The notes under the pieces were generated by a model, which made no database searches, was not told the DNA's origin, and saw only the letters and a list, made by a program, of their open reading frames with translations. A stretch of DNA of 64,000 bases from Byssochlamys sp. IMV 00236 (taxonomy: Eukaryota; Ascomycota; Eurotiomycetes; Eurotiales; Thermoascaceae), in contig MSJH02000556.1 in NCBI GenBank assembly GCA_001931875.2, positions 186,001-250,000 on the forward strand, given 5' to 3'. The translations under genes and the position numbers were made by a program. Each line of letters opens with the position of its first letter. Positions within the stretch are counted from its first letter, which is position 1. Positions 53,399 through 60,531 of the stretch are shown here, in pieces.

Positions 53399-54838
53399 AT
53401 GTCGACAACTGTAACTGTCACTGCTGCAAAGCAGCCGGATATTCAGTATGCGCCAGGCTTTGATAAGTGGCGCACGAGAACGGAGCGTCGACTACGAACC
53501 GAAACCCTGTCTAAGGAGCTCCCGGCAGGTTTCCCCAAGAAGCTCGTCTCGGATCTCGCCTGGGAGGGTTCAGTCATTCAAGACCGTTATGATTGGACAT
53601 ATGTTCTCACTGAGGCTGATTTGGAGGAGATCCAGACTGCGTTGACGCACTTTAGATGTAAGTGAGACGCTTTCTGGGTTTAAGATAATCTATATTCTAA
53701 CCTGCAAAGCTCTTGATAAACCAATCGGGTTCGTTGACCAGGAGACCTTTCCACTCCCGAACCTCCATCCTATACTAAGAGAAGTGTCGAATGAACTGCA
53801 CAATGGTCACGGGTTCAAAGTGATCCGAGGATTACCAGTCGACAAGTACTCTCGCGAGGAAAATGTGATTATCTACGCTGGTATCTCCGCACACATTGCT
53901 TCGATCCGAGGTCGGCAGGACTCATCCTTCGATGGAAAGCCGGCGGACGTGATGCTCAACCATATCAAGGACCTCAGTACTGTGGAAAAGAATAAAGATA
54001 GGATCGGGGCCCCGGCATACACAACTGATAAGCAAGTCTTTCACACCGATCAAGGGGATATCATATCCCTCTTTGCACTCAGTACAGCTGCGTCTGGTGG
54101 ACAGAGCAAGTTGGCTAGTAGCTGGAGGGTCTATAATGAACTGGCGGAGACGCGTCCGGACCTCATCAGGACACTTGCGGAGGATTGGCCTTTCGATGGG
54201 TGCGATTGAGCTTCAGCTTGCTGTTTCCTGTTCTCGATTGGCATGTACTAACCAGAGTGGCAGATTCGGGAACCCCTCGTCACCTTACCACCTACGCCCA
54301 TTACTCTTCTACCAACCTGCCACGGAGAAACAGCCAGAGCGGGTTCTGATCCAGTATGCGCGTCGAAGCTTCACCGGATACCAAGCTCTGCCTCGATCAA
54401 AAGACATTCCCCCAATCACGGAAGCACAAGCAGAGGCATTGGACGCACTGCATTTCCTGGCTGAGAAACATGCAGTCGGTCTCGACTTTCGCAAAGGTGA
54501 CATTCAATATATCAACAATCTAAGTATCTTCCACGCCCGAGATGGATTTCAAGATACCCCTGAACAGCAGTGAGTCCCTAGCCTTTTTTTTTTTTGCCCA
54601 TCTGTCTTATAATGCTGATGAAGGTTTTCGCAGACGGCACTTGATTCGCCTTTGGCAACGGGATCCCGAGAATGCTTGGGTCACACCGGAGCAGTTGTCC
54701 AGAACATGGAAATCACTCTATGATGGAATAACTCCTGAGTCGCAGGTCTTTCCCCTAGAACCATATGTGCGGGGCCCAGCGAGAGGTGCGTTCAGGGATA
54801 AAGCTGCCGTAAGTTCGAACGGGAGGCATTTAGAGTAA
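53399..54838 (+). CDS. TauD/TfdA family dioxygenase
   Basis: Exons are 53399-53657, 53710-54199, 54264-54569 and 54634-54838 (419 residues), with all phases agreeing (THFRSLDKPIGFVD; DGFGNPSSPYHL; EQQRHLIRLWQR). It is an Fe(II)/2-oxoglutarate oxygenase of the clavaminate synthase-like fold. The facial triad is H198-x-D200 (VFHTDQGDIISLFAL) and H340 (LSIFHARDGF); the 2-oxoglutarate-binding Arg is R357 (HLIRLWQRD). Fungal relatives are large and poorly characterised; sulfonates, aromatic ethers and carnitine-pathway compounds are used by different members, so the substrate is unknown. No targeting signal. It is the first gene of an accessory metabolic segment reaching 63 kb. Confidence 0.9.
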
Positions 54839-59357: not shown

Positions 59358-60531
59358 CTAGACAGCAATTGGTGTAGCAAGAGTGTCAATTGTATCATTC
59401 CTCTCTGCGCTGTAGCTGTCCGTACCTGTGCGGAAAGCGATATTGTCCTGTCTGACAGTATCGTTACTTGGAGAAGTTTGATGAGCGGGCGAGACTTCGT
59501 GGCCAGCAGCTTGCTCCTTCTTGTGGTGTTCCATGACGACCTCGCGCACAGTACTCTGGAAGTAAAGAGGTCCCATTTCCTTCTCCGGGTGAAGCTCGCC
59601 GTTGACAAAGACACCAGCGTTCAGGTTCTTCTGGGTGTTAACGCACAAGTATTTGTCCTCAGACATGATTCGTTTATACATGTCGCTGATAAGATTGAAG
59701 TCTTGATCGCTAGAATTCTTATTGCGGTAGACTTCATATCGCATTACTGATTTAGTGGGGCTGATGGGAGTAAATCGCTGTATGAAGAAAAAGTGAGGGC
59801 TGAAGAGGTCAGCAATGTTTCAAGAAACCATAGTGGGAGTGATATACTCACGAAATGTTAAAAGAGGCATTGGGCCAGAAGTAAGTAACGGCTATCCGGA
59901 AGCCCTTCTCGATCTGCTCGGGTCGCGCGGCGCCGTAGTGTTGGATGTGACCGGCCTTGGTTTTCACATAGTAGGAGTTAAGATCAGCAATCGTGGGAAT
60001 ATCGGGGTGGGCGACCAGGCAGTGGTAGCACTCGTTGTAGTTGTCGGCCAGAATCTTCCAGTTGAACTCTCCATCTTGATCCCACGTGTGGTCAAAGACG
60101 TAATCTTCGAAATTATAATAGTCGAATCGGGGCTGCTCATCGACACCATCAAAGTCGTCCTTCCAGGCAACATCGGGGGTCTCGCCGGCGTCCAAGTTGA
60201 CCCAGATAAAACCGTTCCTGTCAACGTGGACATGGATAGGGAAGTTGTCACTCTTATGGAAAGCATTGATGCTTCCTTGGTGGTCCTTGGAGACGATGAA
60301 ATCGTAGCCGGCGATATCATATTCAACAAAGTCACCGGGATTGGCGACTCTATGCTTATGCGTTGTGAGGAGCCATTTCCGGGAAAAGATAGATCGTCGT
60401 TCAAGCTCAAACATCTCCTGGGAGGTATACCAGGAAGCGGGCAAAGCACGGACAGGCTTTTTGCTGTCATGCTTCGCAAGATCGTTCTCCACTGTTGCAG
60501 AGGTACCGAAGAAGTTCCTCAAGAAAGACAT
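59358..60531 (-). CDS. Rieske-type oxygenase lacking the Rieske cluster
   Basis: Minus-strand exons are 59852-60531 and 59358-59799 (373 residues); the 52 nt intron joins ASFNIS to PHFFFIQRFTPISP. Resembles the choline/carnitine monooxygenase-like aromatic-ring-hydroxylating alpha subunits: N-terminal WYTSQEMFELERRSIFSRKW, then FVEYDIAGYDFIVSKDHQG, FPIHVHVDRNGFIWVNLDAG, and a catalytic-domain mononuclear iron site with H170-x4-H175 (NYNECYHCLVAHPD). The [2Fe-2S] Rieske motif (C-x-H, then C-x2-H) expected right after INAFH is missing. The chain runs INAFHKSDNFPIHVHV, with the junction at H92/K93 (60256/60255), and no unassigned DNA is left there to encode it. Family members are usually about 420-430 residues, so roughly 45-50 residues are gone in frame. 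Electron entry should be impossible; it may be inactive, or act differently. An in-frame ATG at 60552 is an alternative start. Confidence 0.85.

Follow-up and report, generated by a model that had tools for sequence, protein, structure and literature searches.

The window analyzed here, a 64,000-nucleotide stretch of DNA from Byssochlamys sp. IMV 00236, encodes a homolog of the Rieske oxygenases (ROs) that has lost its Rieske [2Fe-2S] segment and kept the residues of its mononuclear iron site. The deletion is common to a well-supported clade of 32 rows in our alignment and is therefore old. The aligned sequences show strong constraint on the catalytic domain and relaxation in what remains of the Rieske part. 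We tentatively propose, at a probability of about 0.45, that the gene product is an iron-only subunit derived from group V ROs, which would receive its electrons across the subunit interface from the Rieske cluster of a paralog.

In a paper on carnitine monooxygenase CntA, the ligands of both metal centers are given as an identifying feature of ROs (PMC10952381). A conserved lineage that drops one of these two defining centers is a natural separation-of-function experiment, in which it can be tested whether the iron site is run by the cluster of another subunit or by peroxide. It bears on electron gating in ROs and on the building of reductase-free biocatalysts. A C-terminal cysteine pair is absent along with the cluster, which points to a further element connected with electron input. 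Two-chain ROs are already known; for the Rieske-less fungal lineage, as it appears from its sequences, we found no earlier report in a literature search limited to CC-licensed PMC papers, a scope that makes this weak evidence of novelty.

Gene model and domain content

The gene starts with an ATG at 60531, contains a single intron (Table 1), and encodes a protein of the same length as its ortholog P0001 from Paecilomyces variotii. This ortholog is the nearest relative among the matches listed (96%), and not, as the first-pass annotation had expected, a close Aspergillus ortholog. What that annotation had said about the deletion is largely borne out: the Rieske segment is lost, with gaps in all four ligand columns and no match to PF00355; INAFH is followed in frame by KSDNFPIHV; and the junction lies at 60256/60255. 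The minus-strand frame 60603-59848, whose translation includes GSINAFHKSDNFPIHVHVDRNGFIWVNLDAG, passes through this junction without a stop, which rules out a frameshift. The missing part is slightly larger than the 45-50 residues first estimated, as the spacing between INAFH and FPIHV is 55 residues in the Rieske-bearing relative P0121 versus 4 in the window protein. The gap thus comprises 51 residues, and P0121 holds the C-x-H...C-x2-H motif within them.

Table 1. Positions of the gene and of its features in the window
Feature	Position	Strand	Basis
Gene of the Rieske-less (iron-only) oxygenase-like protein, 373 aa	59358..60531	-	Spliced model, same length as P0001
Exon 1, 226 full codons plus the first two bases of codon 227	59852..60531	-	Open frame, spliced model
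Intron, 52 bp, GT-AG	59800..59851	-	Exon-1-only frames of Rieske-bearing relatives end at the same position
Exon 2, ends in TAG stop	59358..59799	-	Spliced model; PF00848 match
Deletion junction INAFH/KSDNFPIHV	60255..60256	-	51 residues with the Rieske ligands absent relative to P0121
Residues 58-92, first portion of the beta base left from the former Rieske domain	60256..60360	-	Faster evolution in the Rieske-less clade
Residues 97-115, second portion of the same beta base	60187..60243	-	Faster evolution in the Rieske-less clade
E167, equivalent of the CntA bridging glutamate E205	60031..60033	-	Alignment; E in 35/35 rows without an intact cluster motif
H170, predicted iron ligand (CntA H208)	60022..60024	-	Alignment to CntA
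H175, predicted iron ligand (CntA H213)	60007..60009	-	Alignment to CntA
D275, predicted carboxylate iron ligand (CntA D323)	59655..59657	-	Alignment to CntA
C-terminal tail (residues 327-373 plus stop), lacking the cysteine pair seen in Rieske-bearing relatives	59358..59501	-	

Pfam searches find PF00848 and not PF00355 both in the two exons of the window gene (E ≤ 1) and in P0001 (E ≤ 0.1); in P0121, both profiles are matched. A six-frame search of the 47.4-Mb assembly for PF00355, in which the best candidates were scored (8 of 8), lists seven places, none of which is on the contig of the window gene. An overlooked Rieske exon can be rejected on this ground and because orthologs have the same gap. 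The AlphaFold model of P0001 resembles RO structures, with predicted confidence dropping to 78-87 in the blocks round the iron-site helix (161-190) and to 70 at 291-300.

As far as can be told from sequence, the window protein has the PF00848 fold, the 2-His-1-carboxylate triad and the bridging acid of an RO alpha subunit and lacks the Rieske ligands, and it appears to correspond to the iron-only subunit, devoid of a Rieske cluster, of a split RO. Beside the iron site it has the tyrosine (Y165; CntA Y203) and the Cys-x-x-Cys pair (C168 and C171) that mark group V. CntA itself, a member of this group (PDB 6Y8J, 6ZGP and 6Y9C), has the Rieske [2Fe-2S] segment, in contrast to the window protein. 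The same holds for the fungal 'choline monooxygenase'-like ROs, represented by P0121 and by two paralogs from the window genome on contigs C669 and C837: they belong to the same family, and relatives known from the exon alone end exon 1 alike, but they carry both C-x-H...C-x2-H and a C-terminal cysteine pair, of which the window protein has neither. The database names 'Choline monooxygenase, chloroplastic' and 'Rieske 2Fe-2S family protein', which some Rieske-less proteins bear, are misleading.

Distribution of the loss

Three protein searches, of which we took the best 120 of 619, of 1058 and of 873 matches, yielded 227 different proteins. E-x2-H-x4-H is present in all of them, whereas the C-x-H...C-x2-H pattern is absent in 50, including one (P0178) that begins downstream of it. 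We aligned the 141 proteins of at least 340 residues with the window protein and its two paralogs. At least one Rieske ligand is missing in 35 of the resulting 144 rows, and the remaining 109 are Rieske-bearing. The segment is gone in 32 rows, one of which (P0038) has a cysteine in one Rieske ligand column. Of these 32, 24 are assigned to Paecilomyces, Penicillium or Aspergillus, the row of the window protein being counted separately. Whether related species share the deletion had been raised in the first-pass annotation; orthologs from these three genera do.

The three other rows lost their ligands in different ways. In P0090 (F. poae), which stands for a cluster of 103 sequences, C-x-H has become T-x-F and the C-x2-H loop is deleted, and in P0209 the Rieske segment is replaced. 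In P0176 (F. zealandicum), a single sequence, one ligand is changed (C-x-H to C-x-Q). As P0176 still matches PF00355 above the cut-off (5.9e-8, 32.9 bits), this is a ligand loss rather than a domain loss. Rieske-less and Rieske-bearing genes occur together, among the matches listed, in the window genome and in A. nanangensis (P0021 with P0099).

Two further proteins deviate elsewhere. P0126 (Verticillium longisporum) has an intact Rieske motif and an asparagine in place of the aspartate as carboxylate iron ligand. In P0118, which consists of exon 1 only and is too short for the ligand-loss count, the first Rieske motif is intact and the second reads SAKEHG versus SCKYHG, which may reflect a further loss of a ligand or an error in the sequence.

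Phylogeny

For the phylogeny, the Rieske-bearing rows were thinned at 80% identity, leaving 100 rows, and the Rieske columns were left out. In the resulting unrooted tree, whose bootstrap is not fully settled, the 32 Rieske-less rows form a single clade with a support of 100/100. Its sister is P0121 from Fusarium nematophilum, which has a complete Rieske motif and is 67% identical to P0001. P0090 and P0209 form a separate pair (100/99) that adjoins the Rieske-bearing P0145.

A single loss shared by the 32-row clade and this pair is rejected by the AU test (p-AU 0.0038), as is a grouping of the 32-row clade with 11 Rieske-bearing rows that we take to be from Eurotiales, apart from 8 rows that we take to be from Sordariomycetes (p-AU 0.0009); as both groups were chosen after the tree was known, these p-values are weakened. 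The first rejection implies at least two separate losses, to which the sequence of P0176 would add a third ligand loss. The second, together with an identity of 47-60% over the matched pieces between the window protein and its full-length paralogs, implies that the latter and the Rieske-less clade are not recent duplicates. The simplest explanation would be that the gene was transferred from a Sordariomycete donor, although the tree is unrooted. The recent loss of function that the first-pass annotation had considered finds no support, as the deletion is common to the 32-row clade over three genera and the catalytic domain is strongly constrained.

Constraint on the catalytic domain and relaxation of the Rieske remnant

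The H170-x4-H175 motif noted earlier is confirmed, and it is accompanied by Y165, E167, C168, C171 and D275. All seven residues are retained in 35/35 rows without an intact cluster motif and align, in sequence order, with CntA Y203, E205, C206, H208, C209, H213 and D323, among which we take H208, H213 and D323 to be the iron ligands. Over residues 116-325, 71 positions are conserved to at least 95% in the 109 Rieske-bearing rows; at 70 of these, at least 80% of the 32 rows retain the residue, and P0090 and P0176 likewise retain 70 each. The catalytic domain is thus as well preserved, and the flanks of the deletion still align, as had been proposed. Between the window protein and P0001, there are 2 differences in the 112 residues 116-227 and none in the 98 residues 228-325.

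The remaining part of the former Rieske domain evolves differently. We expressed its rate as the tree length of residues 58-115 (54 columns) divided by that of residues 116-325 on a fixed topology. This ratio is 1.81 in the 32-row clade, 1.72 in P0090 and P0209 and 1.41 in P0176, versus 0.79 in the Rieske-bearing branches. It ranges from 0.53 to 1.47 in 26 Rieske-bearing clades of at least four rows, which are nested and hence not independent, and reaches a maximum of 1.21 over 20,000 random draws of 62 branches. The value of P0176 thus lies within the range of ordinary Rieske-bearing clades. The acceleration extends beyond the former Rieske domain: in the Rieske-less clade it includes residues 28-57 as well. 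Individual positions relaxed in this clade are H92, E295, three residues at the scar (93, 94 and 96) and four in the tail (334, 337, 346 and 350).

The C-terminal cysteine pair

The C-terminal tails of Rieske-bearing relatives contain a cysteine pair, often in the form FCsaVdCC, which we scored as C-x3..6-C. It is present in 102 of 103 Rieske-bearing rows, six further ones without a scorable C-terminal end being left out, and in 0/35 rows without an intact cluster motif, 34 of which are informative (P0209 ends before the scored stretch). As it is missing from the 32-row clade, from P0090 and from P0176, the pair seems tied to electron input.

One Rieske-bearing row departs from the CntA-type Cys-x-x-Cys pair: the full-length C669 protein has an arginine at the equivalent of C171, the second of the two cysteines (ECYHR), the sole exception among the 109.

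Related genes in the same genome

PF00848 is found at no fewer than six places in the assembly, in at least four genes: the window gene, the two full-length ROs on contigs C669 (C669:20245-21444) and C837, and a gene on contig C646. About 5 kb from the C669 oxygenase lies an 858-residue frame with DAO, FAO_M and GCV_T domains (L016:1018-3591 on C669), a set that we take to be that of dimethylglycine/sarcosine dehydrogenases. This neighborhood suggests that the Rieske-bearing relatives take part in betaine catabolism.

On contig C646, two genes follow each other on the plus strand, for which the splice models were partly chosen by hand. Gene A (151,984 to 153,186; L021:3985-5187) matches PF00848 and contains ECLHCQYTH and MEDFEL; it has no Rieske segment, and no C-x2-H was found in three frames. 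Gene B (from 153,828; L021:5829-about 7060) has an N-terminal hydrophobic stretch and matches PF00355 with CRHRAY...CRYHGW; PF00848 is not matched (E ≤ 0.1), and none of its open frames contains E-x2-H-x4-H. Past the point where the iron helix is missing, its C-terminal part still shows a weak alignment to the catalytic profile, so that gene B is a remnant rather than a bare Rieske domain. The G+C content at the pair (0.479) matches that of the window (0.485). Judging by these motifs, the tandem is apparently a split oxygenase, and it suggests that the family is able to divide its two centers over two polypeptides.

Gene A resembles the window protein in being iron-only and Rieske-less and is about 30% identical to it over residues 162-303. 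Unlike gene A, which adjoins the Rieske-only gene B, the window gene has no such neighbor in the frames scanned, and no RO gene was recognized in 10 frames of the window or in four frames of the 10 kb beyond. The natural partner of gene B is presumably gene A and not the window protein. The frames neighboring the window gene encode an aminotransferase, an enolase superfamily member and a TauD homolog, from which no functional link emerged. The latter corresponds to TauD/TfdA-family 2-oxoglutarate dioxygenase-like frames at 53646-54573, with PF02668 in 53646-54209, at a distance of about 5 kb.

Possible sources of electrons

In the reading that we prefer, the window gene would encode an iron-only subunit descended from the group V (quaternary-ammonium) ROs, which would form mixed oligomers with a paralog that supplies the Rieske cluster. 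The window protein would be the catalytic partner in this heteromer, and its substrate is probably a betaine-type N-methyl compound. By analogy with known ROs, electrons would pass from the Rieske cluster of one subunit to the iron of its neighbor. In work on CntA, the two centers within one chain are described as 44 Å apart and that of the neighbor as 12.2 Å away via E205; E205 mutants are inactive, and the role described for this residue is cross-subunit electron transfer (PMC7948474). Given that electrons cross between subunits, a subunit with the iron site alone can function provided that its oligomer includes a Rieske-bearing chain, and the retention of E167, the equivalent of E205, fits with a neighbor's Rieske cluster as the donor. 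Likewise, the catalytic positions that are kept should include any that dock the Rieske domain of a neighbor. In favor of this reading, the genome also encodes the two full-length ROs on C669 and C837 and the pair on C646. However, E167 is a glutamate in each of the 109 Rieske-bearing rows as well and thus does not discriminate between the functional models; it may be kept for the structure of the iron site instead. Furthermore, the faster evolution of residues 58-115 and 28-57 argues against a strictly conserved trimer contact, and it also counts against the heteromer that no RO gene was recognized in the neighboring frames scanned and that the full-length paralogs are no recent duplicates.

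There is a parallel for centers that are divided over two chains. In the chlorophyllide a oxygenase (CAO) of Micromonas, the Rieske cluster is said to reside on one chain and the iron motif on the other. The two polypeptide chains of this enzyme are described in PMC9615114. The two-chain theme is alike, yet CAO belongs to another branch of the superfamily and has another substrate, and the partner of the window protein is only putative. The first-pass annotation had envisaged a repurposed iron enzyme with another source of electrons; this fits the evidence, and the likely route would be via the Rieske cluster of a paralog in the same oligomer, an apparently split pair of a Rieske-only and an iron-only gene being present in the same genome. 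More generally, and with slightly more reserve than for the window protein, ascomycetes may repeatedly turn homotrimeric ROs into enzymes with divided labor, in which iron-only subunits that have lost both the Rieske loops and the C-terminal cysteine element are fed across the subunit interface by paralogs; on C646, the partner would in turn have lost its iron site, which would make this oxygenase genetically split.

Among the alternatives, we consider it improbable, if a serious competitor, that the protein is a mononuclear iron enzyme independent of any Rieske cluster, using H2O2 in a natural peroxide shunt, electrons from its substrate or a soluble reductant. The iron-site residues are retained in 35/35 rows, and so is the C168/C171 pair; in CntA, according to PMC10952381, the peroxide shunt runs without reductase and the corresponding cysteine pair helps keep the iron ferrous. 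The cysteine tail and the cluster are absent together, as if electron input were no longer needed, and constraint is relaxed on the beta base that the Rieske domain has left behind. On the other hand, such an enzyme would have no need for the bridging glutamate, judging from the role described in PMC7948474, and yet E167 is fully retained. The C646 pair, moreover, suggests centers shared between chains instead.

A little more doubtful is that the protein acts as a non-catalytic or regulatory subunit, that is, as a sensor, as a scaffold, or as an inhibitor within mixed trimers that it forms together with full-length paralogs. The loss of the electron relay would end normal turnover, and the two to three separate ligand losses resemble the recurrent formation of pseudoenzymes. 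In a non-catalytic protein, however, drift would be expected at the four iron-site residues, none of which is lost in any of the 35 rows, and of all parts of the protein the catalytic domain is under the strongest constraint. A decaying pseudogene, which the missing segment and the relaxed N-terminal part might suggest, is highly improbable in view of the open frame, the conserved end of exon 1, the conservation throughout the clade and the near identity to P0001 over residues 116-325. An artefact of assembly or gene model is less probable still: a deletion in a single assembly could be an error, but here it was read straight from the DNA, and the same gap in orthologs from many genomes and in metagenomic open frames rules out a missing insert at 60255-60256.

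Assembly composition

The 47.4-Mb assembly may contain DNA of a second organism: contig C385 (L007) is AT-rich, with a G+C content of 0.38 versus 0.48, and encodes what appears to be a second bc1-type Rieske protein.
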